64,000 nt of DNA from Henckelia pumila (taxonomy: Eukaryota; Streptophyta; Magnoliopsida; Lamiales; Gesneriaceae). Each line of letters begins with the position of its first letter. Positions within the stretch are counted from its first letter, which is position 1. The notes below the pieces were generated by a model, which did not search any database, had not been told where the DNA came from, and worked only from the letters and a program-made list of their open reading frames with translations. The stretch lies in assembly GCF_033568475.1 (NCBI RefSeq), contig NC_133121.1, positions 56,767,905 through 56,831,904 on the forward strand. The letters run 5' to 3'. The translations under genes were made by a program, and so were the position numbers. Of the stretch, positions 5,578 to 64,000 are shown piece by piece.

Positions 5578-5694
5578 ACAATTTTTTTGGTGTATTTTAT
5601 ACTGTACTTTGATCGGATGGATAACTATGTTAATGAAGTTGGTACAGTATTTTGGTATAATGGATGTTTAATTTCCATTTATTTAATCATCATA

Positions 5695-6334: not shown

Positions 6335-7209
6335 TGAAACGTCCCTAACCTCTACCTTAATTAATTATTATATAAAATGCGGATTTTTAAAAATAATTCC
6401 ATGACCTATCTGTTTCTACTAGAAACCACCTGCCTCAACTCAGCAAGTAAATAAATCAACACCAGACAGAAAATTAATACGATGAGAACATGAATTTTCC
6501 AAAACAAGACCAATTCCAAACGAAAGCGTGAAGATAATGAAAATAGTTAAATAATTTACATGCCATAAATTACAATCTATAAGTTCTTACATTTACATTT
6601 ACCAAAAAAAAAATAAAAAATTAAAGACTTCAAAACTTTTACGTTTAAATAACTTATGCGGAAGACTAGCATAGATCGGAGGGATGTGTCGTGCCCGCAT
6701 CGCAATACACTCAGGAATCATGCCTTTCGATCTCAACGAAAGTCTAACCTGCACCAAGCAAAGTAGTAAGCCTAAAAGCTCAACAATTATAAACCATGAA
6801 ATAATGAGGGTTTAAAATACATGCGTAATACTTAAAATATTAGTACATACATACCTTGAAACTTACTCGGAAAAGGTCTTAAAGGTACAAGGAAATGAGA
6901 CTTGGAACTAAAAAAAAAGGTTGCATGCAATGTAATGAACTCACACCTTTAAACATAAAATTTCATAACTTTAACGGAAAAGAAGACTTGGAATTATGAA
7001 GAAATCACATACAAAGAACTCATGTAACTTAACTCAAATTCACGCTTTTAAACATGAACATTACTCACACTTTTAAACATAAACTTTCATATACTTAAAT
7101 TTTAAAATTTCCTCTATTCTTTCATAAACTTCACTATAAACTTTCCTCTGTGAATTTAGATCCTCGATTGTGACCTTTTGTTTTGATCGATCGATGGCTA
7201 CAGTACTAT

Positions 7210-19189: not shown

Positions 19190-19249
19190 TTTCTCCTCCT
19201 CTAAGATATGATTTCGTCCCCGAAATCGCATGCAATCTGTATATGCAAT

Positions 19250-23845: not shown

Positions 23846-24184
23846 ATCTGATTGTCAAACAGATTAGTGCATAAACAATATCATATTCTGCAATTTATTT
23901 CATCCTTCTCTGATTAGCATTCTCATGCATTCTCATGAGAATTTAGGTTCTGGTCAAGGATAATCTTGAATAATATTGCACATAGAACATGTATTGGCAA
24001 TGAAAGCACATAATCATGCAATCACATAATTCTTGCAATATAATAATATAGCATGCTCACATATAATGCACATAATCAGATACAACATGTAATCTCATGC
24101 AATATAAAGCCATCAGACAGACTCAATCTACCCCGCTCATTAACTTCTATCTCAGTCTAGAACCTATGTTCTGATACCACCTGT

Positions 24185-33700: not shown

Positions 33701-35187
33701 TCCAAGACATGACATGCCTTCGGAGTCAAAACAAGTGGCATTGGAGGTCGCGCACCCTCACCATAAAAATACCAGCTATCACCCTTAGCAGGATGAAACT
33801 GTACCAGATGCTGATAACAATCCACAGTAGCATGATACAAAGTCAGCATATCTATTCCCAAAATACAGTCAAAATCTGCCATCGCTAATATCACCAGATT
33901 AGCTGACAATACATTACCCTCAAACTCAGAAAGCAACCCATCACTAGACACTTAGTTACTATCTCCTGCTCCAGCGAAGTAGATACAACTAAATCCATAT
34001 CTAATGATACATAAGGTAATCTATGTCTCTTAACAAAATGACTAGAAATAAAGGAATGCGATGCTTCAGTATCAATTAAAACAAGTGCAGGAATACCACA
34101 TAACAAAAAGGTACCTGCCAACATGCGATCGATTCCCTCAGTAGCCTGTTCTTGAGATAGAGCAAATACCTGCCCTTGAGTCTGGGGACGGTAACCAGAA
34201 GAACTCTGTGGTGCTGGCTGCTGTCGTGGAAAAGTAGAAGCCTGAGATCTAACCTGTGATCCTGATCCACTAGCAGAACCCATGCGCTGAGCACAATCTC
34301 TCCGCAGATGTTTCTGCTGACCGCAAATATAACAAGTACCAGTAGCTCTCCGACATGAAGCTACAGGATGCTTCCCTCCACAGTGACTACAAAACTCCTC
34401 CTTCTTCTTCTTCTTCTTCCCAAAACGGAACATACCTCGTGAACCATGAGATCCAGATGAAGTAGTAGGAGTAGAAGAAGACGTAGGTCCAGATTGCACA
34501 ACAAATTGAGCTCTAGGCTCAAATGATCCACTAAGCTAGGCTGGCATAAAAAACTGTGCACGCCTGTTTCTGGTCTCCACAAGACGGCAACGGTTCACCA
34601 AAGTATCATAAGATACTGGGTCATCACAGACAACAACCTGTGAGTAGATATCTTGGTTCAGGCCTTCTAGAAAGAGATCATACTTCAATGCATCACTCCC
34701 ATTAATATGAGGACTGAAAGGTAGCAGATCAAGAAATCGTTGCTGATATTGATCAATAGTCATTGATCCTTGCCTCAGAGTAAGCAACTCCATCGATCGT
34801 GCTTGGCGAACAGCTGGAGGAAAATACAGTTTCTGGAACTGCTCACAGAAATCTCCCCAAGTCACCTGTCCTCTCTCAGTACATGCCTGAGCAGCTTTGG
34901 CATCCCACCAAAAACATGCTCGATCCTCTAGAACAAATTCTAGAACTTTCAATTTCTGATCCTTAGTACAATCGAAAGCACGAAAAGTACTCTCGAGTTT
35001 AGACATCCAACTTCTTGCTTGTTCAGGATTCTCGCCTCCCACCAATGGTTTCGGTCCTACTTGCATGAATTTTGATAGATTAGCGACGTCTACCCTCATG
35101 ATGATGATGTTGATCATCATGATTGCGGTGATGACGATGATGATGACCACCTCCCTGGCCAATACTACCGTGACTCTCGTCAGCCAT
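30723..35187 (-). pseudogene. G3 gag-pol polyprotein, multiply broken
   Basis: Gag starts MADESHGSIG at 35187, shifts frame near 35085, and has a TAG at 34536-34538. It carries two zinc knuckles (FCSHCGGKHPVASC and CYICGQQKHLRRDC). Protease shows LIDTEASHSF, i.e. D-T-E-A instead of the usual D-T-G-A. A frameshift near 33920 follows. RT with [16 protein letters not shown] is stopped by TAG at 33283-33285 and shifts frame again near 33130. The remaining 728-codon stretch contains [10 protein letters not shown] (RT active site), RNase H ([10 protein letters not shown]), integrase zinc segment and core ([15 protein letters not shown]) and ends at TAG 30957. In-frame chromodomain-like sequence (VMVQWQRRGIKEATW, then a stop) continues to 30723. 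The element is inactive. Confidence 0.85.
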
Positions 35188-37527: not shown

Positions 37528-38611
37528 CCTGAGGGGTTCACATCCATGGGAAGCGAGCATAAGGTATGCAAGCTTCAGAGATCAATTTATGGTCTAAAAC
37601 AAGCATCAAGAAGTTGGAACCAGAAATTTTATGAAACAATAAAAGATTTTGGTTTCATCAAGAACCCGGAGGAACTGTGCGTGTACAAGAAAGTAGTTAA
37701 GGATGCTGTGACATTCTTAGTACTTTATGTTGATGACATCCTACTCATTGGGAATGATGTAGGGATGTTGCAGTCAACAAAGATATGGTTATCAGGTAGA
37801 TTCTCGATGAAGGATTTGGGTGAGGCATCCTACATTCTTGGGATACAGATCTATAGAGTTAGATCTAAGAGAATGATAGGACTCACTCAATCAACCTACA
37901 TCGACACCATATTGAAACGGTTTTCAATGGATGGGTCCAAGAGAGGACATCTACCCATGTGTCATGGAGTTTCTTTATCCAAGTCTATGTGTCCCAAGAC
38001 TGATGCAGAGATAGAGAATATGACACATGTACCATATGCGTCAGCTATAGGTAGTATCATGTATGGGATGATATCTACCAGACCGGATGTAGCATTTGCT
38101 CTGAGTGTCACGAGCAAATATCAGGCTAATCCTGGTCAAATGCATTGGAAAGCCGTGAAGGACATTCTTAAGTACTTACGAAGGACTAAGAATATGTTCA
38201 TGGTATATGGAGGACGAGATCTGAAATTGGAAGGCTATACCGACTCTAGCTTCCAAAGTGACGTGGATGACTCGAAGTCAACCTCTGGATTTGTGTTCAT
38301 GCTCAATGGCGGTGCTGTCTCTTGGAAGAGTTCCAAGCAGGACACCACAGCGGATTCCACCACTGAGGCTGAATACATTGCAGCATCAGCTGCTGCTAAA
38401 GAGGCCGTTTGGATGAGGAAGTTCGTCCAAGAGTTGGGCGTCATTCCTGAATTTGTTGGTCCAGTCCCGGTGTACTGTGACAACACGGGTGCCATTGCTC
38501 AAGCAAAGGAACCAAGGTCTCATCAAAGATCCAAACACGTACTGAGGAAATACCACATCATCCGGGAGATTGTGGAAAGAGGAGACATCACTGTCGAACG
38601 AGTGGCCTCTG
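37528..38611 (+). pseudogene. Copia B reverse transcriptase / RNase H fragment
   Basis: An open frame starts mid-RT (PEGFTS, then SIYGLKQASRSWNQKF), contains the RT active site LVLYVDDILLIGN and a full copia RNase H with GYTDSSFQSDVDDSKSTSGF and TTEAEYIAASAAAKEAVW, and breaks off at VERVAS where the E1 LTR enters (38612). Gag, protease, integrase and the first part of RT are missing: the leader array is joined directly to RT, an internal deletion of several kb. The ATG at 37546 is therefore only an internal Met. Sequence style is of the common Tork/TAR-like copia type (low confidence). Confidence 0.85.
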
Positions 38612-39185
38612 TGATGAAACTTAAAATTTGTAATTATTTATATGTTAAAAAGTGTGTTTTAAAATTTAAGTTTAATTAAAATTATGAAGTTGTATTATTT
38701 TAGTGTTATGTGTTTATATTTAAATGTTTTACTAAAATGTTGTATTTTACGGTTTGCGCAGGTTTGGTAAAAATAAAATTACTCAAGCTACAGTGGTCAT
38801 AATGGAGTAATCTCAAAACCTGTAGAATCACAAAAGAGGCATCTTCAACTTTGTAGAAGACAAAAAATTCCAAAAACTTCATTAAGATGATCAAAATAAT
38901 AAAACATCAAAATGGAGATAGATTTACTTTTACTATGACCAGCTTGAAGTAAAAATATCATAAGTATTTCATATTTTATCCAAAAGGGGTGAATGAGTTG
39001 TCCAAACACATCTACACAAAATATCCTACGTGTTCTATGTTGAAAAGAAAGGCTGAATCGGTGGTCTAAGGCATCAAACATGCCAATTAAAGTTGGGTCA
39101 TGGTATTGACATTCAAGGAGACAAGCACCCACCAACTTTACTATTTCACATTTAATAAGCCTTGGACTCTTCCTCTCATTTGGCC

Positions 39186-40365: not shown

Positions 40366-43300
40366 ATGATTGTTTGGAGTCGTAAACAAAGTGGTAGACT
40401 TGTTCGAGTAACTGAAAATATTTTAAACATGGACGATAATTCTAATAATCAAGATGATAATAATAATAATAATCATCATCAAGATTATGAACAACCAAGA
40501 ACACTTAGGCACCATATGAATCCAATAAGAACTAGTACACCATCTTGTTTAGTTTTTCCTCCTAATGCATCTAATTTCAATTTTAAGCCACAAGTCATTC
40601 AACTTTTACCAAATTTTCATGGCTTAGATTCTGAAAATCCATATTTGCATTTAAGAGAATTTGAGGAGGTTTGCAACACTTATAATGATCAAAATTGTAG
40701 CATGGATACTGTTCGATTAAAGCTTTTCCCTTTTTCCTTAAAAGATAAAGCTAAAACATGGTTGCAAAATTTGAGATCAAGTTCAATAAGATCATGGGAA
40801 GAAATGCAACAACAATTTCTAAAAAAGTTTTTTCCTTCCCATAGAACAAACTCTTTTAAAAGACAAATTACAACTTTTTCTCAAAAACAAGGGGAAACAT
40901 TTTATCAATGTTGGGATAGATATAAAGAGTTACTTAATACATGCCCACATCATGGTTTTGAAATATGGAGAATAGTTTCTCACTTTTATGAAGGTTTAAT
41001 ACCTAAAGATAGGCAAATGATAGAATTCATGTGTAATGGAACTTTTGAAGATAAAAACCCAAATGAAGCTATGGAATATTTGGAGTCATTAGCAGAAAAT
41101 GCTCAAAATTGGGATAATATAGGCTCAATTGAACCACCAAGTAAAACCAATAATTCAACAAATGGGGGTGGTATTTATCATCTTAAAGATGATGTAGATG
41201 TTCAAGCTAAACTTGCATCTTTAGCAAGAAAAATCGAGTCATTAGAAATGAAAAAGAGTGATCAATTAAAAAGTGTTCAAGAAATTGTTTGTCATATATG
41301 TGACACACATGATCATCTTACAAAAAATTGTCCTACTTTGCCTTCATTTAAAGAATGTCTCCATGAACAAGCCAATTATGTTAACAATTTTAAAAAACCA
41401 ACATTAGATCCTTTTTCACAAACATACAATCCTGGTTGGAGAAATCATCCCAATTTTAGTTGGAGGAACGATAATAATGCACAACCTTCACAACAACCTT
41501 TTCAAAAAAACCAAAATCATCAAGGTTATGCTCCTTATATCCCACCTCCAAGAAAAAATTTTGAAGATGAAATTCATGCATACATTCAAAAGCAAGAGTC
41601 TATCAATATTCAAAACATTCAATCTATGAATGATTTGAAAGAAACTCTTGCAAAATTTGCATCTTCACTTAATATTCATGAAAAAGGAAAATTTCCATCT
41701 CAACCACAACCTAATCCTAAAAATCAAAATCAAGAAAAATTTGATCAAGTAAAATCTGTTATTACTCTTAGAAGTGGTAAAATAGTTAATGATCCATATA
41801 GTGATGAAAACAAATATCAGTCAAACTCAAAGAGTAAGGATGAAAATCTTGATACTTTCGAGAAAGATGATACTTTGAGTCCTAAGATTAAGAAAGTTGA
41901 TGATAAATTATCTGAAATAATATGTGAGTCAAATAAGCATGTTCCTTTCCCTCATGCATTAGTTAATAATAAAAAACAAAAAAATGATTCTGATATTTAT
42001 GAAGTTTTTAAACAAGTAAAAATAAATATTCCATTATTAGATGCTATTAAACAAGTGCCTTCTTATGCAAAGTTTTTAAAAGATTTATGTACTGTAAAAA
42101 GACAATTGCATGTAAAGAAGAAAGCATTCTTAACGGAGCAAGTAAGTTCTATTATTCAAAATAATTCTACTTTGAAATATAAAGATCCCGGTTGTCCAAC
42201 AATTTCATGTATTATTGGAAAAAATAAAATTAAAAAAGCTTTGTTAGATTTGGGAGCAAGTGTGAATTTAATTCCTTATTCAGTTTATGAAAAGCTTAAG
42301 TTGGGAGATTTAAAACCTACATCTGTTACTCTTTTACTAGCCGATAGGTCAATCAAAATACCTAGAGGTATCGTAGAAGATGTGTTAGTTCAAGTCGATA
42401 AATTCATATATCCTGTGGATTTTATTGTCTTGGATACACAACCAATAGAAGTACATAACGAAATTCCAGTAATATTGGGACGTCCATTTCTAGCAACTTC
42501 AAATGCTTTAATTAATTGTCGAAATGGAATAATGAAATTGTCTTTTGGAAATATGACTTTAGAACTTAATGTGTTCAATTTATGTAAACAACCAAGTATT
42601 AATGAAGATGAAGATGATAATGCAATAGAAACAATTGTGGAAGAAAATATACACCAAGAAAACTTAAATCAACAATCTGAAGTTTGTTTAGTGGAAAGTT
42701 TTGATTCAAAAAATGTTTTTAAATCAAAGTTATTTGAAGAAATTAATGAACTTGAAGAAGTAAAAGAAAATGATCATCCAAAACTTGAATTAAAACCCTT
42801 GCCAATAGAACTAAAATATGCTTTTCTTGGTGAAAATCAAACATATCCTATTGTAATATCTTCTACCCTCTTACCAAAACAAGAAGAAGATGTAATAACA
42901 CTACTTAAAAAACACAAAAATGCAATTGGATGGACTTTGCAAGATATAAAAGGTATAAATCCTTTAATCTACACACATAGAATTCACTTGGAAGAAAATG
43001 CTAAAACATATCAACAACCACAAAGAAGATTAAATCCACACATGAAAGAAGTTGTTAAAAATGAAGTTTTAAAACTATTAGATGCCGGAATTATTTATCC
43101 AATCTCGGATAGTAAATGGGTAAGTCCAACACAAGTAGTACCAAAAAAATCAGGCATCACTGTTATAAAAAATGAAAAGGGAGAATTATTACAAGCTAGG
43201 ATTCCATCTAGTTGGCGTATGTGCATTGATTATAGAAAATTAAATGATGCAACTAGAAAAGATCACTTTCCGTTACCATTTTTAGATCAAATTTTAGAGA

Positions 43301-45826: not shown

Positions 45827-46381
45827 ATGGAAGAAGCTATCAAAGAACATGGAAAATATATTTGTTCTTCTGTTTCTAAAAAAGTTCGAAGAATGATTTA
45901 TGAATGCAGACGTGAAAGATTGAGAATTCTTATGCAAAAAGGAATTCCGGAGGATATTCGTCTTATAATTGAAGCCAAGGTTCGAATAGGTGGCGAAGTT
46001 CCAAAATTCTTATATGTTCGAAATATGTCCGGACTAGGAAAAAGCACCTATGCGAAGAAAAGGAGGGCAAAAGGGTTAGATGTTTGTCATAAATGTGCCA
46101 GATGGACTTGTAACAAACGATGCAGATCTTTGGGATGTGTTTCCACAAATAGAGAAGATAAAATTGATTTCATTAAGAATGGGCTGAGTAAAGAGTCATT
46201 GGATGATATCTCATTGACTCTTGAGACGCATTCTAGTGGATATGTACAAGGTCAACTTCTCCGTTTATGGAAACTATTCCAAGCGCAGCGTCATGGTAAT
46301 GGTCTTGGGAATCTGACTAAAAAAGACCCTATTTGCCAATTTATAAGAAAATTGGATGGGAAGCCAACCCTCAACTCATAA
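45827..46381 (+). CDS. Accessory protein with carlavirus NABP-like basic/Cys domain (E1 copy)
   Basis: An intact 184-aa ORF downstream of pol. Central region: a helix-like segment GIPEDIRLIIEAKVR, a short Gly/Ser linker, the strongly basic stretch YAKKRRAK (75-82), then cysteines C87, C90, C95 and C99 and a downstream FIKNGL segment. This order (conserved hydrophobic segment, S-x-Y-A-x-K-R-R-A-K, C-H-x-C, further Cys pair, F-I-x-x-G) is the hallmark of the cysteine-rich nucleic-acid-binding proteins of carlaviruses (Betaflexiviridae, Pfam Carla_C4). Homology is inferred from motif order, not from a search. In those viruses the protein binds nucleic acid and has been linked to suppression of host defence; its role here is unknown. 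The ~67-residue C-terminal part (from about 118) has no match I recognise. It differs from the E2 copy at about 12% of residues. Confidence 0.7.
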   Translation: MEEAIKEHGKYICSSVSKKVRRMIYECRRERLRILMQKGIPEDIRLIIEAKVRIGGEVPKFLYVRNMSGLGKSTYAKKRRAKGLDVCHKCARWTCNKRCRSLGCVSTNREDKIDFIKNGLSKESLDDISLTLETHSSGYVQGQLLRLWKLFQAQRHGNGLGNLTKKDPICQFIRKLDGKPTLNS

Positions 46382-49551: not shown

Positions 49552-51337
49552 TAAATTGTAATTCACCCAAGTGTAGGTTGTCTGCAAGTAATATACTCGT
49601 GAGTACGAGATCGATCCACGGAGAGGATGTTGTAAGTTTAATTTTAGCAATAATATATTATAGATGAAAATATTATTATAAAACTTCAAATACACAAATT
49701 ATAAAATTGTCAAGGTTTCAAAGGTTCATTGTTGGTTTAATTAAGATTGCTAAATAAAAATAAATAAAAGAAACTAAAATAAAAATAAACATAAAAGAAC
49801 AATGAAATATTTAAACAAGTATATCATATAATATAGTTCCCACTATATTAATATCAGATTAACCGATATTTAATACATGGTACCCATAATATATATATAG
49901 ATGAATAAATATAAACATAAAAAGAATAATTAAATATTTAAACAAGTATATCATATAATATAGTTCCCACTATATTAATATCCACCGATATTTAATACAT
50001 GGTACCCATAATATATATATAAATGCATAAATATAAATTGACATAAAAGTAAATGTTAGATCAAATCACAATATTTTATTTAGAACAACCGGCAGAGCCA
50101 CGCTATCGTCTAAATAAAATATATGACTTTATGTTAGATGCGATAAGGTAAATGTTAGTTGCGGAAAAGTAAAAGTTAGATGCGAGAAAGTAAATGTTAG
50201 TTGCGGAAAAGTAAATGTTAGTTGCGATAAAGTAAAAGTTAGATGCGATAAAGTAAATGTTAGTTCAAATCACAATATATTATTTAGAACAACCGACAGT
50301 GTCACGCTATCGTCTAAATAATATATATGACTTTATTATAAATAGATACATATATTTATAGTATATAATTATTGTAGTAATTATTGTATCATATTTGACA
50401 ACAAATCAAGGTAACCACATTCAAGGTACCAAGCATTTGATGTAAATAGATAACAACAAATCATCCAAAATTATACCTACAAATAAAGATCAATTAGTAA
50501 AAATAAAAATAGAAAAAAAAAGAATATACAAAATATAGACAATCTTACTTGACCAACAATGAAACCTTTTCACCTTGACATAAAAAGATTTAGCTTTCCA
50601 TGAACATGAAACTCAAGAATAAAGATAAAAGAAATTTCATACTTGAACTTGAGAAACTTGCACACTCAAACTTTTATTCTCACACACACAATATTTATTT
50701 TACAAATGAAGAATTCTCTACACTCTTGCACACTACAAATCTTATACAACACATCTATTTATAGGCCAAATGAGAGGAAGAGTCCAAGGCTCATTAAATG
50801 TGAAATAGTAAAGTTGGTGGGTGCTTGTCTCCTTGAATGTCAATACCATGACCCAACTTTAATTGGCATGTTTGATGCCTTAGACCACCGATTCAGCCTT
50901 TCATTTCAACATAGAACACGTAGGATATTTTGTGTAGATGTGTTTGGACAACTCATTCACCCCTTTTGGATAAAATATGAAATACTTATGATATTTTTAC
51001 TCCAAGCTGGTCATAGTAAAAGTAAATCTATCTCAATTTTGATGTTTTATTATTTTGATCATCTTAATGAAGTTTTTGGAATTTCTTGTCTTCTACAAAG
51101 TTGAAGATGCCTCTTTTGTGATTCTACAGGTTTTGAGATTACTCCATTATGACCACTGTAGCTTGAGTAATTTTATTTTTACCAAACCTGCGCAAACCGT
51201 AAAATTCAACATTTTAGTAAAACATTTAAATATAAACACATAACACTAAAATAATACAACTTCATAATTTTAATTAAACTTAAATTTTAAAACACACTTT
51301 TTAACATATAAATAATTACAAATTTTAAGTTTCATCA
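49552..51337 (-). repeat. Inverted LTR copy
   Basis: Reverse complement of the same LTR family: starts TAAATTGTAATTCACCC (missing the last ~12-18 LTR bases) and ends AAGTTTCATCA. It has the intron (50477-50548), the ~130-bp duplication and an inverted TATA box at 50756-50763. With the preceding LTR it forms a head-to-head palindrome with arms of about 1.7 kb and virtually no spacer. Confidence 0.9.
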
Positions 51338-52668
51338 CATAGTAAAGTTGGTGGGTGCTTGTCTCCTTGAATGTCAATACCATGACCCAACTTTAATTGT
51401 CATGTTTGATGCCTTAGACTCTTCCTCTCATTTGGCCTATAAATAGATGTGTTGTATAAGCTTTGTAGTGTGCAAGAGTGTAGAGAATTCTTCATTTGTA
51501 AAATAAATATTGTGTGTGTGAGAATAAAAGTTTGAGTGTGCAAGTTTCTCAAGTTCAAGTATGAAATTTCTTTTATCTTTATTCTTGAGTTTCATGTTCA
51601 TGGAAAGCTAAATCTTTTTATGTCAAGGTGAAAAGGTTTCATTGTTGGTCAAGTAAGATTGTCTATATTTTGTATATTCTTTTTTTTTCTATTTTTATTT
51701 TTACTAATTGATCTTTATTTGTAGGTATAATTTTGGATGATTTGTTGTTATCTATTTACATCAAATGCTTGGTACCTTGAATGTGGTTACCTTGATTTGT
51801 TGTCAAATATGATACAATAATTACTACAATAATTATATACTATAAATATATGTATCTATTTATAATAAAGTCATATATATTATTTAGATGATAGCGTGAC
51901 ACTGTCGGTTGTTCTAAATAATATATTGTGATTTGAACTAACATTTACTTTATCGCATCTAACTTTTACTTTATCGCAACTAACATTTACTTTTCCGCAA
52001 CTAACATTTACTTTCTCGCATCTAACTTTTACTTTTCCGCAACTAACATTTACTTTATCGCATCTAACATAAAGTCATATATTTTATTTAGACGATAGCG
52101 TGGCTCTGCCGGTTGTTCTAAATAAAATATTGTGATTTGATCTAACATTTACTTTTATGTCAATTTATATTTATGCATTTATATATATATTATGGGTACC
52201 ATGTATTAAATATCGGTGGATATTAATATAGTGGAAACTATATTATATGATATACTTGTTTAAATATTTAATTATTCTTTTTATGTTTATATTTATTCAT
52301 CTATATATATATTATGGGTACCATGTATTAAATATCGGTTAATCTGATATTAATATAGTGGGAACTATATTATATGATATACTTGTTTAAATATTTCATT
52401 GTTCTTTTATGTTTATTTTTATTTTAGTTTCTTTTATTTATTTTTATTTAGCAATCTTAATTAAACCAACAATGAACCTTTGAAACCTTGACAATTTTAT
52501 AATTTGTGTATTTGAAGTTTTATAATAATATTTTCATCTATAATATATTATTGCTAAAATTAAACTTACAACATCCTCTCCGTGGATCGATCTCGTACTC
52601 ACGAGTATATTACTTGCAGACAACCTACACTTGGGTGAATTACAATTTAAGTTGTAGCAAGTTTTTGG
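51338..52668 (+). repeat. Chimeric LTR fragments
   Basis: 51338-51419 is a second, short inverted LTR piece (equivalent to about 50803-50884). At a GACT microhomology (51417-51420) it switches to a forward LTR fragment that starts just upstream of the TATA box and runs to the LTR end plus AGTTTTTGG, the first bases of the primer site. It has the intron and the duplication. Confidence 0.85.
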
Positions 52669-54302
52669 AGTGTGTTTTAAAATTTAAGTTTAATTAAAAT
52701 TATGAAGTTGTATTATTTTAGTGTTATGTGTTTATATTTAAATGTTTTACTAAAATGTTGTATTTTACGGTTTACGCAGGTTTGGTAAAAATAAAATTAC
52801 TCAAGCTACAGAGGTCATAATGGAGTAATCTCAAAACCTGTAGAATCACAAAAGAGGCATCTTCAACTTTGTAGAAGACAAGAAATTCCAAAAACTTCAT
52901 TAAGATGATCAAAATAATAAAACATCAAAATGGAGATAGATTTACTTTTACTATGACCAGCTTGGAGTAAAAATATCATAAGTATTTCATATTTTATCCA
53001 AAAGGGGTGAATGAGTTGTCCAAACACATCTACACAAAATATCCTACGTGTTCTATGTTGAAAAGAAAGGCTGAATCGTGGTCTAAGGCATCAAACATGC
53101 CAATTAAAGTTGGGTCATGGTATTGACATTCAAGGAGACAAGCACCCACCAACTTTACTATTTCACATTTAATAAGCCTTGGACTCTTCCTCTCATTTGG
53201 CCTATAAATAGATATGTTGTATAAGCTTTGTAGTGTGCAAGAGTGTAGAGAATTCTTCATTTGTAAAATAAATATTGTGTGTGTGAGAATAAAAGTTTGA
53301 GTGTGCAAGTTTCTCAAGTTCAAGTATGAAATTTCTTTTATCTTTATTCTTGAGTTTCATGTTCATGGAAAGCTAAATCTTTTTATGTCAAGGTGAAAAG
53401 GTTTCATTGTTGGTCAAGTAAGATTGTCTATATTTTGTATATTCTTTTCTTTTCTATTTTTATTTTTACTAATTGATCTTTATTTGTAGGTATAATTTTG
53501 GATGATTTGTTGTTATCTATTTACATCAAATGCTTGGTACCTTGAATGTGGTTACCTTGATTTGTTGTCAAATATGATACAATAAATACTACAATAATTA
53601 TATACTATAAATATATGTATCTATTTATAATAAAGTCATATATATTATTTAGACGATAGCGTGACACTGTCGGTTGTTCTAAATAATATATTGTGATTTG
53701 AACTAACATTTACTTTCTCGCATCTAACTTTTACTTTATCGCAACTAACATTTACTTTTCCGCAACTAACATTTACTTTCTCGCATCTAACTTTTACTTT
53801 TCCGCAACTAACATTTGCTTTATCGCATCTAACATAAAGTCATATATTTTATTTAGACGATAGCGTGGCTCTGCCGGTTGTTCTAAATAAAATATTGTGA
53901 TTTGATCTAACATTTACTTTTATGTCAATTTATATTTATGCATTTATATATATATTATGGGTACCATGTATTAAATATCGGTTAATCTGATATTAATATA
54001 GTGGGAACTATATTATATGATATACTTGTTTAAATATTTCATTGTTCTTTTATGTTTATTTTTATTTTAGTTTCTTTTATTTATTTTTATTTAGCAATCT
54101 TAATTAAACCAACAATGAACCTTTGAAACCTTGACAATTTTATAATTTGTGTATTTGAAGTTTTATAATAATATTTTCATCTATAATATATTATTGCTAA
54201 AATTAAACTTACAACATCCTCTCCGTGGATCGATCTCGTACTCACGAGTATATTACTTGCAGACAACCTACACTTGGGTGAATTACAATTTAAGTTGTAG
54301 CA
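52669..54302 (+). repeat. 5' LTR of E2, first 39 bp missing
   Basis: Begins at AGTGTGTTTTAAAATTTAAG, LTR position 40, directly joined to the preceding LTR fragment. It has the intron (53418-53489) and no ~130-bp duplication, like the E1 5' LTR. Confidence 0.9.
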
Positions 54303-54308
54303 AGTTTT

Positions 54309-54326
54309 TGGCGCCGTTGCCGGGGA
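54309..54326 (+). other. E2 primer binding site (tRNA-Asp)
   Basis: TGGCGCCGTTGCCGGGGA, perfect complement of the tRNA-Asp 3' end, seven bases after the LTR end. Confidence 0.85.
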
Positions 54327-54381: not shown

Positions 54382-57300
54382 ATGATTGTTTGGAGTCGTA
54401 AACAAAGTGGTAGACTTGTTCGAGTAACTGAAAATATTTTAAACATGGACGATAATTCTAATAATCAAGATGATAATAATAATAATAATCATCATCAAGA
54501 TTATGAACAACCAAGAACACTTAGGCACCATATGAACCCAATAAGAACTAGTACACCATCTTGTTTAGTTTTTCCTCCTGATGCATCTAATTTCAATTTT
54601 AAGCCACAAGTCATTCAACTTTTACCAAATTTTCATGGCTTAGATTCTGAAAATCCATATTTGCATTTAAGAGAATTTGAGGAGGTTTGCAACACTTATA
54701 ATGATCAAAATTGTAGCATGGATACTGTTCGATTAAAGCTTTTCCCTTTTTCCTTAAAAGATAAAGCTAAAACATGGTTGCAAAATTTGAGATCAAGTTC
54801 AATAAGATCATGGGAAGAAATGCAACAACAATTTCTAAAAAAGTTTTTTCCTTCCCATAGAACAAACTCTTTTAAAAGACAAATTACAACTTTTTCTCAA
54901 AAACAAGGGGAAACATTTTATCAATGTTGGGATAGATATAAAGAGTTACTTAATACATGCCCACATCATGGTTTTGAAATATGGAGAATAGTTTCTCACT
55001 TTTATGAAGGTTTAATACCTAAAGATAGGCAAATGATAGAATTCATGTGTAATGGAACTTTTGAAGATAAAAACCCAAATGAAGCTATGGAATATTTGGA
55101 GTCATTAGCAGAAAATGCTCAAAATTGGGATAATATAGGCTCAATTGAACCACCAAGTAAAACCAATAATTCAACAAATGGGGGTGGTATTTATCATCTT
55201 AAAGATGATGTAGATGTTCAAGCTAAACTTGCATCTTTAGCAAGAAAAATCGAGTCATTAGAAATGAAAAAGAGTGATCAATTAAAAAGTGTTCAAGAAA
55301 TTGTTTGTCATATATGTGACACACATGATCATCTTACAAAAAATTGTCCTACTTTGCCTTCATTTAAAGAATGTCTCCATGAACAAGCCAATTATGTTAA
55401 CAATTTTAAAAAACCAACATTAGATCCTTTTTCACAAACATACAATCCTGGTTGGAGAAATCATCCCAATTTTAGTTGGAGGAACGATAATAATGCACAA
55501 CCTTCACAACAACCTTTTCAAAATAACCAAAATCATCAAGGTTATGCTCCTTATATCCCACCTCCAAGAAAAAATTTTGAAGATGAAATTCATGCATACA
55601 TTCAAAAGCAAGAGTCTATCAATATTCAAAACATTCAATCTATGAATGATTTGAAAGAAACTCTTGCAAAATTTGCATCTGCACTTAATATTCATGAAAA
55701 AGGAAAATTTCCATCTCAACCACAACCTAATCCTAAAAATCAAAATCAAGAAAAATTTGATCAAGTAAAATCTGTTATTACTCTTAGAAGTGGTAAAATA
55801 GTTAATGATCCATATAGTGATGAAAACAAATATCAGTCAAACTCAAAGAGTAAGGATGAAAATCTTGATACTTTCGAGAAAGATGATACTTTGAGTCCTA
55901 AGATTAAGAAAGTTGATGATAAATTATCTGAAATAATATGTGAGTCAAATAAGCATGTTCCTTTCCCTCATGCATTAGTTAATAATAAAAAACAAAAAAA
56001 TGATTCTGATATTTATGAAGTTTTTAAACAAGTAAAAATAAATATTCCATTATTAGATGCTATTAAACAAGTGCCTTCTTATGCAAAGTTTTTAAAAGAT
56101 TTATGTACTGTAAAAAGACAATTGCATGTAAAGAAGAAAGCATTCTTAACGGAGCAAGTAAGTTCTATTATTCAAAATAATTCTACTTTGAAATATAAAG
56201 ATCCCGGTTGTCCAACAATTTCATGTATTATTGGAAAAAATAAAATTAAAAAAGCTTTGTTAGATTTGGGAGCAAGTGTGAATTTAATTCCTTATTCAGT
56301 TTATGAAAAGCTTAAGTTGGGAGATTTAAAACCTACATCTGTTACTCTTTTACTAGCCGATAGGTCAATCAAAATACCTAGAGGTATCGTAGAAGATGTG
56401 TTAGTTCAAGTCGATAAATTCATATATCCTGTGAATTTTATTGTCTTGGATACACAACCAATAGAAGTACATAACGAAATTCCAGTAATATTGGGACGTC
56501 CATTTCTAGCAACTTCAAATGCTTTAATTAATTGTCGAAATGGAATAATGAAATTGTCTTTTGGAAATATGACTTTAGAACTTAATGTGTTCAATTTATG
56601 TAAACAACCAAGTATTAATGAAGATGAAGATGATAATGCAATAGAAACAATTGTGGAAGAAAATATACACCAAGAAAACTTAAATCAACAATCTGAAGTT
56701 TGTTTAGTGGAAAGTTTTGATTCAAAAAATGTTTTTAAATCAAAGTTATTTGAAGAAATTAATGAACTTGAAGAAGTAAAAGAAAATGATCATCCAAAAC
56801 TTGAATTAAAACCCTTGCCAATAGAATTAAAATATGCTTTTCTTGGTGAAAATCAAACATATCCTATTGTAATATCTTCTACCCTCTTACCAAAACAAGA
56901 AGAAGATGTAATAACACTACTTAAAAAACACAAAAATGCAATTGGATGGACTTTGCAAGATATAAAAGGTATAAATCCTTTAATCTACACACATAGAATT
57001 CACTTGGAAGAAAATGCTAAAACATATCAACAACCACAAAGAAGATTAAATCCACACATGAAAGAAGTTGTTAAAAATGAAGTTTTAAAACTATTAGATA
57101 CCGGAATTATTTATCCAATCTCGGATAGTAAATGGGTAAGTCCAACACAAGTAGTACCAAAAAAATCAGGCATCACTGTTATAAAAAATGAAAAGGGAGA
57201 ATTATTACAAGCTAGGATTCCATCTAGTTGGCGTATGTGCATTGATTATAGAAAATTAAATGATGCAACTAGAAAAGATCACTTTCCGTTACCATTTTTA

Positions 57301-59691
57301 GATCAAATTTTAGAGAAAGTGGCAGGTAATCCTTATTATTGTTTTCTTGATGGGTATTCGGGGTATTATCAAATACCAATATCATTAGAAGATCAAGAAA
57401 AAACTACTTTCACTTGTCCGTTCGGAACTTTTGCTTTTAAAAGAATGCCATTTGGTTTATGTAATGCCCCGGCTACTTTTCAAAGATGCATGCTAAGTAT
57501 TTTTAGTGACATGATTGAAGAATTTGTGGAAGTTTTTATGGATGATATAACTGTTTTTGGAAACTCATTTGAAAACTGTCTTAAAAATTTGGAAGAAGTT
57601 TTAAAAAGATGTGAAGAAAAAAATCTTGTTTTAAATTGGGAAAAATGTCACTACATGGTTAAATCCGGAATTGTGTTAGGGCATGTCATATCTGAAAAAG
57701 GAATTGAAGTTGATAAAGCTAAGGTTGATGTTATTGCTAATCTACCATCACCAAACACGATCAAAGAAATTCGATCATTTTTGGGTCATGCGGGATTTTA
57801 TAGAAGATTTATAAAAAATTTTAGCATAATATCGAAACCAATTTCAAATCTTTTAACAAAAGATGCACAATTTGAATGGACTCAAGAATGTGAAACTGCT
57901 TTTAAAAAAATAATTAATCTTTTAACTACATCACCTATTTTACAACCTCCTGATTGGTCTTTACCATTTGAATTAATGTGTGATGCAAGTGATTATGCTG
58001 TAGGAGCCGTGTTAGGACAAAGAAAAGAAGGTAAACCTTATGTGATCTATTATGCAAGTAGAACCTTAAATAGTGCTCAAATCAATTATTCAACAACTGA
58101 AAAAGAATTACTTTCAGTAGTGTTTGCATTAGATAAATTTCGATCCTATTTAATTGGTTCTACTACTATTGTTTACACTGATCATTCTGCCATAAAATAT
58201 TTATCAAATAAACAAGATGCTAAGCCGAGATTAATAAGATGGATTTTGTTGTTACAAGAATTTGATCTTGTAATAAGAGATAAAAAAGGAAAAGAAAATG
58301 TAGTAGCCGATCATTTATCAAGAATAATTTTTGAATCATCTCAAAATGAAATACCAATAAATGAAAATTTTCCGGATGATCAACTATTTTATGCTACTAC
58401 TATGCCTTGGTTTGCTAATATTGTAAATTTTCTTGTGACAAATAAAATGCCTTCTCATTGGAATTCACAAGATAAAAATAAATTCTTGAAAGAGGTCAAA
58501 AAATTTTATTGGGATGATCCTTATTTGTTTAAGTATTGTCCTGATCAAATTTTTCGACGATGCATACCCGACAATGAGGTAAGTAGTGTCATTAAATTTT
58601 GTCATTCTGAGGCATGTGGAGGTCATTTTTCGTCAAAGAAAACAGCTGCAAAAATCTTTCAATGTGGATTTTATTGGCCTTCTTTATTCAAAGATACACA
58701 TTCATTTTGCAAATCTTGTGAAAATTGTCAGAAAATGGGTTCAATTTCAAAACGAAACATGATGCCTTTAAATCCAATCATGATTATTGAAATATTTGAC
58801 AGTTGGGGAATAGATTTTATGGGTCCATTTCCATTATCTTTTGGATTCACTTATATTTTAGTAGCTGTCGATTATGTTTCAAAATGGATTGAAGCAATTG
58901 CATGTAGAACTAATGATCATAAAGTTGTGATAAAATTTTTGAAAGAAAATATTTTTAGTCGATTTGGAATACCTAGAGCTATAATAAGTGATGGGGGAAG
59001 TCATTTTATAAATAAATCATTTTCTTCGTTGTTAAGAAAATATGGTATTACACATAAAGTCTCTACTCCATATCACCCTCAAACGAATGGTCAGGTTGAA
59101 CTTGCAAATAAAGAAATAAAACAAATTTTGGAAAAAACAGTCAATCCAAATCGAAAAGATTGGTCTTTAAGATTAAGTGATGCATTATGGGCATATAGAA
59201 CTGCATTTAAAACATCATTGGGGATGTCACCATATAGATTAGTTTTTGGAAAGCATTGTCATTTACCTGTTGAAATTGAACATAAAGCTTATTGGGCAAT
59301 TAAAGCATTTAATACTAATTTAGATGATGCATCTAAATCAAGAAAATTGCAATTAAATGAACTAGAAGAATTAAGAAATGATGCATATGAAAATGCAAAG
59401 ATTTATAAAGATAAAACAAAAGCATTTCATGATAAAAATATTATGAGAAAATCTTTTGAAATCGGAAAAAAAGTTTTACTTTATAATTCTCGCTTGCATT
59501 TGTTTCCAGGAAAACTTAGATCGCGATGGTCTGGACCATTTATTGTTAAATTTGTCTATCCTCATGGTGCTGTTGATGTTGAAAATCCTAAAAATAATAA
59601 TGTATTTAAAGTTAATGGGCAAAGACTTAAACCGTTTATAGAAAATGAAGTTCTTAATGAAGAGTTTATGCCTTTATATGATCCAACTTAA
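54382..59691 (+). CDS. gag-pol: Intact Athila-like gag-pol polyprotein
   Basis: 1769 aa without a break. Capsid (retrotransposon gag) about residues 85-215. Zinc knuckle C309-X2-C312-X4-H317-X4-C322. Protease with LLDLGAS at 626-632 (D628; D-L-G-A-S is the Athila-type variant of D-T/S-G). Reverse transcriptase with the VFMDD active site, D1054-D1055. RNase H starting near D1201 ([14 protein letters not shown]). Integrase with zinc-binding segment (from about 1410) and catalytic D1478, D1537 and E1573, giving exact DD35E spacing. No chromodomain is seen, as expected outside the chromoviruses. All catalytic residues I can check are present, so this copy may be competent. The ATG at 54445 ([10 protein letters not shown]) is an alternative start. 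Upstream leader ATGs are followed by quick stops. Confidence 0.95.
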
Positions 59692-59698
59692 TTGTTAC

Positions 59699-59723
59699 TT
59701 ATATTTTTATTTTATTTTTGCAG
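59699..59723 (+). promoter_or_regulatory. Splice-acceptor-like site after E2 pol
   Basis: T-rich tract ending TTTTGCAG at 59723, eight codons or so after the pol stop. The following 116 bases to the accessory ORF contain no ATG but a conserved GC-richer segment (CACTTCCCGGTTAAGTGGCG, about 59733-59752) able to fold. Confidence 0.5.
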
Positions 59724-59839: not shown

Positions 59840-60391
59840 ATGGATGAAGATATCAAAAAACTTGGTAAATATTTTCCATCTGTTTCTAAAAAAGTTCTGA
59901 GAATGATTTATGAAGGCAGATGTGAAAGATTGAGAATGCTTATGCAAAAAGGAATCCCGGAGGATATTCGTCTTATAATTGAAGCCAAGGTTCGATTAGG
60001 TGGTGAAGTTCCAAAATTCTTACTTGTTCGAAATATGTCTGGACTAGGAAAAAGTACCTATGCGAAGAAAAGAAGGGCTAAAAGGTTAGATGTTTGTCAT
60101 AATTGTGCCAGATGGACTTGTAATAGACAATGCAGATCTTTGGGATATGTTTCCACAAATAGAGAAGATAAAATTGATTTCATTAAGAATGGGCTGAGTA
60201 AAGAATCATTGGATGATATCTCATTGACTCTTGAGACGCATTCTAGTGGAGATGTAAAAGGTCAACTTCTCCGTTTATGGAAACTATTCCAAGCGCAGCG
60301 TCATGGTGATGGTCTTGGGAATCTGACTAAAAAAGACCCTATTTGCCAATTTATAAGAAAATTGGATGGTAAGCCAACCCTCGACTCATAA
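59840..60391 (+). CDS. Accessory protein with carlavirus NABP-like basic/Cys domain (E2 copy)
   Basis: An intact 183-aa ORF, homologue of 45827-46381. Basic stretch YAKKRRAKR (74-82), cysteines C86, C89, C94 and C98 with H87, hydrophobic segment GIPEDIRLIIEAKVR (38-52) before and FIKNGLS (114-120) after. All four cysteines and the basic stretch are kept in both copies although the proteins otherwise differ at roughly one residue in eight, which argues that the zinc-binding/basic core matters. Resemblance to carlavirus cysteine-rich nucleic-acid-binding proteins is by motif order. The alternative is an unrelated retroelement zinc-binding protein. The C-terminal half (SLTLETHSSG...) is not recognised. 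The position after pol is where Athila elements carry an env-like ORF, but no signal peptide or membrane segment is visible. Confidence 0.7.
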   Translation: MDEDIKKLGKYFPSVSKKVLRMIYEGRCERLRMLMQKGIPEDIRLIIEAKVRLGGEVPKFLLVRNMSGLGKSTYAKKRRAKRLDVCHNCARWTCNRQCRSLGYVSTNREDKIDFIKNGLSKESLDDISLTLETHSSGDVKGQLLRLWKLFQAQRHGDGLGNLTKKDPICQFIRKLDGKPTLDS

Positions 60392-60584
60392 ATATTGAAG
60401 GAACACTGTGAGCCACAATCACATCACTGTTTATACGCATGCATGTTATTATTATATATTATTATTTTTTTTTACTATTTTTATCATTTTGTTCTCATCT
60501 GTATTCCTATTTCTGTCTTATTCCTTGTTTTCCTTATAAAATCACTCAACTCTCTCTATATTTTTTAAAAGAAAAGAAAAAAAC
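60392..60584 (+). promoter_or_regulatory. Spacer upstream of LOG, possible own promoter/leader
   Basis: 193 bp with a TATA-like TATAAAA at 60535-60541 and a CT-rich stretch (CACTCAACTCTCTC) just after it, then an A-rich leader before the ATG. It looks like a plant core promoter plus 5'UTR and may have come with the captured gene. E1 lacks it from position 60401 on. Confidence 0.35.
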
Positions 60585-61223
60585 ATGACAGGATCTTCTT
60601 CACAAAAATTGAAAAATATTTGTGTCTTTTGTGGTTCTAATACTGGAAAGAATGAAATATTTGTTGATGCAGCAATTAATCTTGGAAAAAAGTTAGCAGA
60701 GAGAAAAATTCACTTGGTTTACGGAGGAGGCAATATAGGGTTAATGGGATCTATTTCAACAGCAGCTCATCTTGGAGGTAGTCAGGTTTTGGGTATTATT
60801 CCTACAGCTTTAGCTGAAGGAAATATTACAGGTGTTACGGTTGGGGAAGAGTTGAAAGTTTCATCAATGTACGAGAGAATAACTAAAATGATAGAAAATT
60901 CTGATGCTTTTATTGCCTTACCTGGTGGTTTTGGTACTTTAGAAGAAATTTTTCATGTTGTTTCTTGGGCACAACTTAATATCCATAATAAACCTGTTGG
61001 CTTGTTGAATATCAATAACTATTATGATGGTTTGTTGACTTTTCTCGATGTAGCCGTGGAACAAAATTTTATTTCAGAAAATTCACGAAGGATGCTCATC
61101 TCTGCTTCGAATGAAGACCAATTAATTGATGATCTCCAAGCTTTTGTTCATCAACCTGATTCAGCTATAACAAAGATCAATTGGTCTCAACCAACCAGTA
61201 AGAAAAGAAAACTGGATCATTGA
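60585..61223 (+). CDS. LOG: LOG-type cytokinin riboside 5'-monophosphate phosphoribohydrolase inside a retrotransposon
   Basis: An intact, intronless 212-aa ORF. Family hallmarks: N-terminal NICVFCGSNTGKN (11-23), the nucleotide-binding YGGGNIGLMG (46-55), the Arg of SSMYERITKM (R98) and the signature PGGFGTLEE (113-121), followed by WAQLNIHNKPVGLLN (128-142). LOG enzymes release active free-base cytokinins from their riboside 5'-monophosphates in the cytosol/nucleus. Length matches plant LOGs (about 210-230 aa). Differences: the Lys that usually follows the conserved Arg is Ile99, and the signature has Phe116 where most plant LOGs have Tyr. The C-terminus ends in SKKRKLDH, a possible nuclear-localisation signal. 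Plant LOG genes normally have several introns, so an intronless copy between pol/accessory ORF and 3' LTR suggests capture through an mRNA. The last two codons and stop (ATCATTGA) are also present in E1, which otherwise lacks the gene. Confidence 0.92.
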   Translation: MTGSSSQKLKNICVFCGSNTGKNEIFVDAAINLGKKLAERKIHLVYGGGNIGLMGSISTAAHLGGSQVLGIIPTALAEGNITGVTVGEELKVSSMYERITKMIENSDAFIALPGGFGTLEEIFHVVSWAQLNIHNKPVGLLNINNYYDGLLTFLDVAVEQNFISENSRRMLISASNEDQLIDDLQAFVHQPDSAITKINWSQPTSKKRKLDH

Positions 61224-62600
61224 TTCAACATGTCATGAAATGGTTTGTGTTTGTTCCTCATCTTCAATAATTCCAGGTGATATCTCTTTCATCATGTACT
61301 CTTTATTTTTCTCTAAAAAAAAAAAAAAAAAAAAATTTAAAATTTAAAAAAAATATATATATATTTCTATAATAATATTTATTTTTCTTTTTCAATGGCA
61401 GAGTAAGGAGTCAAAAACTCCTGACACGCATTAGTTTTTATTTATCATTTTATCACAATAGATTAGATTTTAATATTCCGTATATATTTAAATTGCAAAC
61501 TACTAAGAAAATGAAGTCTTTTTGTATAGATGTTTATTTATTCTTCTTTTTACCAATTTAATAGAAAATATATAATTGATGGGATATAAGTTATAAATAA
61601 TATATAATTGTGTGTTTTCAAATATATATTTTCTAAAACTTTTATGAGTATATAATTAAAGTGATATTGATTGAATAAATAATAACATGTATAATTGAGG
61701 GAATTAATTTGTAAAAGTATAATAGTTACTCACATAAATTTTGTGAGTGAGGGGTAAGAATTGAGAAAACAACTTATAAGCTTTTATTGATTATTAAGAA
61801 ATGGTTGATTACTAGATTAAACCCATTTTGAAAAAAAAAAAAGAAAAAAAAATGAAAAATGAAAATTGGCTGCAAAGTTGTTTGAAGTTTGATTGTAAAG
61901 ATGTAGAGTATTAATATCTCTACTATAATTATTAATGTAATAGATTTACCTCATAAAAAATAAAAAAATAAATAAACTTTGAAAAAAAAATGTTACATTT
62001 TCAAAGTTTATTGGAGGTATTTGATTATGTAAAAACAATTTTGCAGCCAAGCAAAAAAACAAAAAAACAAAAAAAAAATGGGTTTATTCTTTGTAAATCA
62101 TCCTATCTTATTTTCAATATTAGGTTATTTGATTGTCTGCTTTACTAGCCATTTTCAAAGAGTGTATAATTTTCTTCCAACTCCACGAGTGAAAAACAGC
62201 TATATATGAAATACTTTAACCCGAGAGAATATGGAGTTGAGACTTTTACATTAATATTCCTGATGATATACATGTTATGAAAATGATTTCTATTATCCTT
62301 TTAATTATATTATTCTCAAAGTTTTTAGAAAATATTTATGTAAAAAAAAAAATTATATATATTTAATATTTTGATATTGTGTGAAATATATATGTATAGC
62401 CCATCCAATTACATATTAATATATTGGTTGATAATGAGATTTATAAATAAACATATGATCTCCTCACAAGTGTGTTTTTAAAATTTTAAAGTTTGCAAAT
62501 TTAAATATATATATTAAGGAATAAAAATCTAACTTGTGATTTTATGATATTTTATGATATTTTATTACTAAGGGACTAGTAATTAGCCGGTTTGGGGGTG
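61224..62600 (+). other. 3' non-coding region of E2 with foldback and PPT
   Basis: Nearly identical to the E1 counterpart but missing about 60 bp that in E1 hold an extra purine tract. Contains the foldback (61800-62103), two TTTTATGATAT copies and the polypurine tract CCGGTTTGGGGGTG ending at 62600. No ORF. Confidence 0.75.
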
Positions 62601-64000
62601 TGATGAAACTTAAAATTTGTAATTATTTATATGTTAAAAAGTGTGTTTTAAAATTTAAGTTTAATTAAAATTATGAAGTTGTATTATTTTAGTGTTATGT
62701 GTTTATATTTAAATGTTTTACTAAAATGTTGTATTTTACGGTTTACGCAGGTTTGGTAAAAATAAAATTACTCAAGCTACAGAGGTCATAATGGAGTAAT
62801 CTCAAAACCTGTAGAATCACAAAAGAGGCATCTTCAACTTTGTAGAAGACAAGAAATTCCAAAAACTTCATTAAGATGATCAAAATAATAAAACATCAAA
62901 ATGGAGATAGATTTACTTTTACTATGACCAGCTTGGAGTAAAAATATCATAAGTATTTCATATTTTATCCAAAAGGGGTGAATGAGTTGTCCAAACACAT
63001 TTACACAAAATATCCTACGTGTTCTATGTTGAAAAGAAAGGCTGAATCGGTGGTCTAAGGCATCAAACATGCCAATTAAAGTTGGGTCATGGTATTGACA
63101 TTCAAGGAGACAAGCACCCACCAACTTTACTATTTCACATTTAATAAGCCTTGGACTCTTCCTCTCATTTGGCCTATAAATAGATGTGTTGTATAAGCTT
63201 TGTAGTGTGCAAGAGTGTAGAGAATTCTTCATTTGTAAAATAAATATTGTGTGTGAGAATAAAAGTTTGAGTGTGCAAGTTTCTCAAGTTCAAGTATGAA
63301 ATTTCTTTTATCTTTATTCTTGAGTTTCATGTTCATGGAAAGCTAAATCTTTTTATGTCAAGGTGAAAAGGTTTCATTGTTGGTCAAGTAAGATTGTCTA
63401 TATTTTGTATATTCTTTTCTTTTCTATTTTTATTTTTACTAATTGATCTTTATTTGTAGGTATAATTTTGGATGATTTGTTGTTATCTATTTACATCAAA
63501 TGCTTGGTACCTTGAATGTGGTTACCTTGATTTGTTGTCAAATATGATACAATAAATACTACAATAATTATATACTATAAATATATGTATCTATTTATAA
63601 TAAAGTCATATATATTATTTAGACGATAGCGTGACACTGTCGGTTGTTCTAAATAATATATTGTGATTTGAACTAACATTTACTTTCTCGCATCTAACTT
63701 TTACTTTATCGCAACTAACATTTACTTTTCCGCAACTAACATTTACTTTCTCGCATCTAACTTTTACTTTTCCGCAACTAACATTTACTTTATCGCATCT
63801 AACATAAAGTCATATATTTTATTTAGACGATAGCGTGGCTCTGCCGGTTGTTCTAAATAAAATATTGTGATTTGATCTAACATTTACTTTTATGTCAATT
63901 TATATTTATGCATTTATATATATATTATGGGTACCATGTATTAAATATCGGTTAATCTGATATTAATATAGTGGGAACTATATTATATGATATACTTGTT
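62601..64000 (+). repeat. 3' LTR of E2 (cut by the window end)
   Basis: Starts TGATGAAACTT; 1400 bp are visible with TATA (63175-63182), intron (63388-63459), hairpins and repeat array, matching the E2 5' LTR type. Confidence 0.9.

Follow-up and report, generated by a model that had tools for sequence, protein, structure and literature searches.

A LOG-family gene with a changed base pocket in an Athila-type retrotransposon of Henckelia pumila

The window, a stretch of 64,000 nucleotides of Henckelia pumila DNA, contains an open reading frame of the LONELY GUY (LOG) family inside an LTR retrotransposon, which raises the question of whether this is a gene of the element and what its product may do. 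The GAG-POL proteins are considered sufficient for the transposition of plant LTR elements (PMC7264820), and it is said to be rare for an extra gene with recognisable biochemistry to become fixed (PMC9289625). One such case is a Gypsy element of orchids with an AlkB-type 2-ODD domain, in which a plant Ty3 element likewise fixed an extra enzyme gene, but that element is of the Tat/Ogre type and the enzyme is an RNA demethylase (PMC9289625). The YgdH domain, as in LOG, was found in the Gypsy consensuses of two Citrus species and, once the filter was relaxed, in those of P. trichocarpa, a finding that accords with Steinbauerova et al. 2011 according to the same paper (PMC9289625). The presence of LOG in plant Gypsy elements is already known at the domain level, and the Citrus and Populus elements resemble ours in having a LOG-family domain inside a plant Gypsy element. 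The LOG section of PMC9289625 describes no cysteine-rich protein (CRP), changed pocket, tail or clade analysis, and does not name the carrier lineage. By title and start of abstract, it was the only relevant paper on LOG in retrotransposons among the open-licence matches listed, and no report of a CRP in a retrotransposon, a change in the LOG pocket or the tail was seen in these listings. The main text of the Retand paper (PMC11963269) uses none of the terms lysine decarboxylase, cytokinin and carlavirus.

The LOG-bearing element, hereafter element 2, lies on the forward strand. Its 5' LTR (52669..54302) lacks ∼41 nt of the outer edge when compared with the LTR at 38610 and adjoins a rearranged LTR array. 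A sequence resembling a primer-binding site (PBS), TGGCGCCGTTGCCGGGG (54309..54325), is located 6 nt past the end of the 5' LTR, and we take it to be the tRNA-Asp type PBS of Athila and Calypso. The open gag-pol ORF (54382..59691; 1769 aa) had Pfam matches to gag, protease, reverse transcriptase (RT), RNase H and integrase, the protease match being below its cut-off (22.9 versus 24.3 bits), and no chromodomain was matched in the element by Pfam. Directly past the pol stop, TTTTTGCAG (59715..59723) is common to element 2 and a sister copy in the window, and it is a possible 3' splice site for the RNA of the accessory genes. Two accessory ORFs follow: the first (59840..60391; 183 aa) encodes a carlavirus-type CRP, and the second (60585..61223; 212 aa) encodes the LOG-family protein, which ends in KKRKLDH. 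A TATAAAA sequence (60535..60541), 50 nt 5' of the LOG start codon, is a possible internal promoter. The 3' LTR (∼62599..64000) runs past the end of the window, and the G-rich GGTTTGGGGG at 62589, just 5' of it, is possibly part of a polypurine tract. The two LTRs were 99.6% identical, with 3 mismatches and 3 gap columns in 1,363 aligned columns, and this near-identity indicates that element 2 moved recently. In the earlier note, the LOG gene followed an accessory ORF and preceded the 3' LTR in an otherwise intact element with an open gag-pol; the placement and the open gag-pol stood, while the intactness is limited, as both LTRs are incomplete in the window.

Element 2 combines a single gag-pol ORF, a PBS a few nucleotides past the LTR and extra coding sequence 3' of pol, and it was assigned to the Athila-type Ty3 elements on the basis of this structure. 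The single gag-pol ORF and the PBS a few bp past the LTR are shared with Athila, Calypso and Diaspora, and additional coding sequence downstream of pol, before the 3' LTR, is found in Athila and Calypso as well; in Calypso and Diaspora the PBS is of the tRNA-Asp type and begins 5 bp after the LTR (PMC1142308). Unlike in Athila and Calypso, the extra ORFs of element 2 encode the CRP and LOG and are not env-like, and no env-like gene was found 3' of its pol. Diaspora, a member of the same group, is also devoid of env, and in Tpb1-1, from the Diaspora clade, pol and the LTR are separated by a long interval with a poly(A) run and an apparent retrogene, in which no ORFs were identifiable (PMC1142308).

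The window contains a second copy of the family, element 1 (38610..∼49543, forward strand), which has gag-pol and a CRP ORF (45827-46381) but no LOG, so that one of the two family copies in the window carries the gene. The gag-pol of element 1 has a premature stop in its integrase part. Compared up to this stop, the two elements differed at 13 of 4851 gag-pol nucleotides, while their CRP ORFs differed at 34 of 549 (dN/dS ∼0.47, from this one pair only), and marked divergence begins right after TTTTTGCAG (45699 and 59715). As the CRP diverges far more than gag-pol, the block downstream of pol has a separate history, which probably involved exchange or recombination between subfamilies. Loss of LOG from element 1 is likelier than its insertion into element 2, because the clade of LOG relatives is wide.

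Between the two elements (49552-52649), pieces of LTR are arrayed in both orientations. They include inverted-repeat arms of 1239 nt (100% identical), and a further pair of 1359 nt (99%) is formed with the 5' LTR of element 1. A Ty1/copia-type reverse transcriptase ORF (37546-38679; RVT_2, E 3.6e-29) runs into the element 1 LTR at 38610, which suggests that element 1 inserted into a copia element.

The LOG ORF (60585-61223, forward strand) runs uninterrupted from ATG to TGA over 212 codons plus the stop. Its product matched PF03641 (Pfam, E 5.3e-39) and TIGR00730 (177.4 bits, cut-off 96.35). The 300-bit cut-off of the equivalog model NF058542 was missed by the window LOG (122.9 bits), and since the Arabidopsis host LOG P0241 misses it too (132.4 bits), this model does not discriminate here. 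The predicted body of the protein has the LOG fold (2a33_B, E 9e-24), the same as that of AtLOG3, and the best PDB matches, both by sequence and by fold, were plant LOGs. The description of a complete LOG ORF with the catalytic Arg and the PGGFGTLEE signature was thus borne out, Arg98 and PGGFGTLEE both being present. The window LOG was 46.2-49.5% identical to 26 host sequences. Identities of ≤49.5% rule out a recent origin as a one-off retrocopy of any of the sampled host LOGs, and the near-identity to a host mRNA that the earlier note had named as a sign of such a retrocopy was not seen for the sampled hosts.

The residues of the active site were counted in 117 relatives, taken from the best 120 of 7973 matches to the window LOG with P0002, P0003 and P0015 left out, and in 120 host proteins, the best 120 of 7990 matches to Arabidopsis At2g37210 (numbered names among them are LOG1, LOG3 or LOG4). 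The catalytic residues were largely kept in the relatives: Arg98 was present in 112 and missing in 5, and Glu121 was present in 114 and missing in 3. Thr118 (117/117), Trp128 (116/117) and Met95 (105/117) were also retained, and His96 was found in 51 of the 117, the window having Tyr there. Lys99 and Glu124, which are Lys and Glu in all 120 hosts, were each replaced in 113 of the 117 relatives. Position 99 was occupied by Met (42), Ile (36) or Leu (35), and position 124 by Gln (60), His (49) or other residues (4). The same four relatives, P0066, P0088, P0089 and P0099, kept both Lys99 and Glu124. The window protein has Met95, Tyr96, Ile99, His124 and Trp128 next to its intact PGGFGTLEE, so that the adenine/prenyl pocket set Met96, His97, Lys100, Glu125 and Trp129 (CgLOG numbers) is not complete in it. 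In 42 element-type sequences, left after nine were dropped and near-copies thinned, the residue was retained in 82% of cells at the 57 sites that do not differ between the two bacterial LOGs and ≥25 of the 26 hosts; for the 84 sites that are conserved among the hosts and not in the bacteria, the figure was 46%.

The window positions 99 and 124 correspond to Lys100 and Glu125 of CgLOG, which belong to its adenine/prenyl site, while Arg99 and Glu122 are catalytic (PMC4979012). The prenyl site was inferred by superposition, there being no LOG structure with a natural substrate at that time; Glu125 and Trp129 are supplied by the neighbouring subunit, and alanine substitutions in the AMP site almost completely abolished activity, with the exception of S19A (PMC4979012). 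In CgLOGII, Lys156Ala, at the same position as Lys99, had no activity on AMP, while changes of the prenyl-site residues Phe152, Phe153 and Met185 did not lead to a loss of AMP activity (PMC5379747). Loss of Lys99 could therefore abolish the activity of the window protein, by analogy with CgLOG and CgLOGII precedents that were measured on AMP. Compared with the type I LOGs AtLOG3 (At2g37210), CgLOG and CpLOG, the retrotransposon-encoded protein, which we call retroLOG, has the same fold, the catalytic Arg/Glu pair and PGGxGTxxE, and differs in the replacement of Lys100 and Glu125 (CgLOG numbers), in an added basic tail and in being encoded by a retrotransposon. Judged by its sequence, the window protein is a LOG homologue that may or may not activate cytokinins, as the base-pocket pair is replaced; the earlier designation as an intact cytokinin-activating LOG is not supported at Lys99 and Glu124, though the catalytic pair stays.

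The relatives of the window LOG (best 120 of 7973 matches) were 57-88% identical to it and represented clusters of up to 327 members. Reevesia accounted for 26 of these 120 entries, on 14 contigs, and Diplodiscus for 8, on 7 contigs. From this copy number and dispersal, we infer that the listed relatives are mostly element-borne. In the annotated Xanthoceras protein P0002, two LOG pieces flank a stretch of 38 aa that corresponds to pol residues 527-564 (55% identity, E 3e-7). Among the 240 fetched LOG and CRP relatives, pol sequence was found only in P0002 and in the CRP relative P0204, and none joined a CRP to a LOG, the pairing being seen in the window alone. Matching sizes of the longest contigs between the LOG and CRP lists (4511, 2128 and 905 bp) were considered as evidence of CRP-LOG linkage and rejected: 905 bp is too short for both genes, and the matches at 4511 and 2128 bp are near chance by a rough estimate.

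A tree was calculated from 52 thinned element-type sequences plus the window LOG, 25 of the 120 host sequences, part of LOG8 (1ydh) and two bacterial LOGs; P0002, P0003, P0014, P0015, P0095 and P0102 were dropped beforehand. The 53 element-type sequences formed one side of a branch (99/94), with the bacterial LOGs outside. P0066, P0088 and P0099 branched outside the remaining 50, which grouped at 100/99, and the window LOG paired with P0001 (100/86) and then with P0004 (99/80). For this host sampling, which is mostly of the LOG1/3/4 type plus part of one LOG8, the element LOGs appear to share a single origin and to have been captured once. The search of the ORF against other plants that the earlier note had proposed thus returned multicopy relatives in one clade apart from the sampled hosts. 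We place the genera named among these relatives in the rosids and the asterids, and LOG has apparently been kept by Athila-type elements of both. Because the listed relatives form one widespread clade with a changed pocket, LOG looks like a maintained gene of the element and not like a one-off capture. When the LOG alignment was scanned over viral contigs, 25 loci were found, with a best-segment identity of ≤50%, and a scan of the same kind with the RT piece gave 3 pattern matches and 0 relatives.

Most relatives carry a C-terminal tail that is absent from nearly all of the hosts. An LxLxL sequence was present within the last 12 residues in 98 of the 120 relatives (best 120 of 7973) and in none of the 120 hosts, a basic cluster within the last 20 residues in 106 of the relatives and one of the hosts, and both together in 93 of the 120 relatives, with no sequences dropped. 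In 41 thinned relatives plus the window LOG, counting those that reach the columns concerned, the last three leucine columns of the tail were conserved (entropy 0.66, 0.51 and 0.19 bits) the first column was less uniform (1.05), and the residues separating the leucines varied (1.57, 1.53 and 1.99). LxLxL is one consensus of the EAR repression motif, and DLNx(x)P is the second EAR consensus. The relative P0117 ends in DLNLTP, which fits the latter, and the repressors ZCT1 and ZCT2 have LDLNLTP, ending in the same six residues (PMC9956375). The four relatives with both Lys99 and Glu124 have no LxLxL. The window LOG, P0001 and P0004 end in KKRKLDH or KKRKLDD, also without LxLxL; neither EAR consensus is present in the window LOG, which has only the basic cluster KKRKLDH, and its last ten residues were predicted with pLDDT <50. 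As LxLxL is missing, an EAR role cannot apply to the window protein.

The first accessory ORF encodes a protein with the sequence KKRRAKR followed by C-x2-C-x4-C-x3-C. It matched PF05515 (Viral_NABP; E 1.2e-5, 25.9 bits, cut-off 23) and PF01623 (Carla_C4; E 7.2e-5, 23.1 bits, cut-off 20.9); the CRP of element 1 was below the cut-off for PF05515 (20.9 bits) and above it for PF01623 (24.1 bits). PF05515 was found in 18 of 18 members of the CRP alignment A2 and PF01623 in 17 of 18 (E ≤0.001), and every one of the best 120 of 227 CRP relatives matched PF01623. In 93 aligned sequences, the basic run (76-81) and the cysteines 86, 89, 94 and 98 were conserved at ≥90% or did not vary at all. Populus, Xanthoceras, Acer, Rhamnella and Orobanche were the hosts named among the best 120 of 227, and in P0204 from Rhamnella the CRP follows an integrase end that was 77% identical to that of element 2 (111 aa, E 1e-55). 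The basic stretch, the four-cysteine finger and the matches to both families are shared with carlavirus-type CRPs such as p12 of chrysanthemum virus B (CVB), from which the window CRP differs in being retrotransposon-encoded and 183 aa long, viral CRPs being generally shorter. Neither this resemblance nor the EAR-like tail of most listed LOG relatives figures in the earlier note. The predicted structure was poor (pLDDT 71.1, pTM 0.34). The top 4 of 25 BFVD hits of this model were proteins of filamentous viruses and were not significant (E 0.30-2.6); those named RNA silencing suppressor came from fig latent virus 1, chrysanthemum virus B and cowpea mild mottle virus, and one from garlic virus A was named nucleic-acid binding protein. 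A search of the PDB gave 0 hits, and a scan of the CRP alignment over viral contigs gave 30 pattern matches and 0 relatives. CVB p12 suppresses silencing weakly and also works as a transcription factor, causing hyperplasia (PMC12172455).

With somewhat more than even confidence, we read retroLOG as a long-maintained accessory gene of an Athila-type Ty3 lineage of eudicots that would encode an active nuclear phosphoribohydrolase working beside the CRP. The cDNA of a host LOG would have been captured once by the element lineage and would at first have kept the canonical pocket, as in the four sequences of the P0066/P0088 type without LxLxL; later the base pocket would have changed and the LxLxL tail arisen, and the tail would then have been shortened in the subclade of the window. 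The window protein would be an active nucleoside-5'-monophosphate phosphoribohydrolase, most likely with a changed or broadened base preference, that acts on a cytokinin-like or other modified purine nucleotide and is directed to the nucleus by its basic tail. The CRP, by analogy with its viral counterparts, may act as a silencing suppressor or transcription factor. It is an attractive idea that the two proteins jointly make the cell more permissive for the expression and transmission of the element, through division and reduced silencing.

A plain cytokinin-activating LOG, which would free iP and tZ from their riboside monophosphates and drive the division of element-expressing cells, is an unlikely reading in our judgement. 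It agrees with Arg98, Glu121, PGGFGTLEE, Trp128 and Met95, all kept in the window, with the AtLOG3-like fold and with the plant LOGs as best PDB matches, and the prenyl site of CgLOG was itself inferred without a natural-substrate structure (PMC4979012). However, the window and 113 of 117 relatives have other residues in place of Lys99 and Glu124, whose equivalents form part of the adenine/prenyl site lining in CgLOG, AtLOG3 and CpLOG (PMC4979012), and a change at the Lys99 position in CgLOGII (Lys156Ala) cost the activity on AMP (PMC5379747). The loss of Lys99, together with the conserved basic and LxLxL tail of the relatives and the DLNLTP of P0117 that matches the end of LDLNLTP in ZCT1 and ZCT2 (PMC9956375), would also fit a non-enzyme, that is, a nucleotide-binding or scaffold protein that, in the relatives, would use its tail in the nucleus to recruit TOPLESS-type co-repressors or to titrate them. 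This we consider improbable, since a dead enzyme would not need Arg98 and Glu121, kept in 112 and 114 of 117 relatives, and the window copy has no LxLxL. That LOG is a passenger, a host cDNA of no use to the element that carries it, is very improbable: without selection, one would not expect a clade 57-88% identical to the window LOG in which most ORFs are intact and catalytic sites and a patterned tail persist. Even so, element 1 has no LOG and differs from element 2 at only 13 of 4851 gag-pol nucleotides, so that members of the family also spread without the gene; plant LTR elements are documented to capture genes (PMC7264820), and the related element Tpb1-1 has an apparent retrogene after pol (PMC1142308).

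A bolder form of the preferred reading, the maintained and active phosphoribohydrolase, is possible but doubtful. Here the captured LOG would have become a nuclear effector with a rebuilt pocket for a new nucleotide substrate and, in most lineages, an EAR tail that recruits TOPLESS; together with a virus-type zinc-finger silencing suppressor, it would reprogramme host cells as plant pathogens and viruses do. Should the two accessory genes indeed affect silencing as well as hormone or nucleotide metabolism, there would be retrotransposons equipped with pathogen-like effector genes. The clade offers a natural series, from a canonical pocket without LxLxL, through a changed pocket with LxLxL, to a changed pocket with a shortened tail, and this series makes the question of function testable with recombinant proteins. 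The CRP is a lead on the origin of the cysteine-rich proteins of filamentous plant viruses.

Several further features were seen in the window. In both elements, a match to snoR71 (RF00097; 45.4 bits, gathering threshold 40) lies antisense to gag on the reverse strand (40848-40958 and 54864-54974), and RF00097 is perhaps a retrotransposon-derived Rfam family. The LTRs contain an internal minisatellite, AACTAACATTTACTTTATCGC, with 21/42/63-nt periods, located at 63671-63805 and at equivalent places in the other LTR copies. Two more Ty3-type elements are present on the reverse strand (19613-22706 and 30957-35162), with pol pieces 24-37% identical to element 2, and direct repeats ∼7058 nt apart occur at 17320-25535. 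An ORF of 467 aa (2146-3549), probably a host gene, contains leucine-rich repeats (LRR_6, over its cut-off) and an F-box match that fell short of the threshold (19.7 versus 25.5 bits). A tandem array at 5694-6335 consists of ∼4.6 copies of a 141-nt unit.
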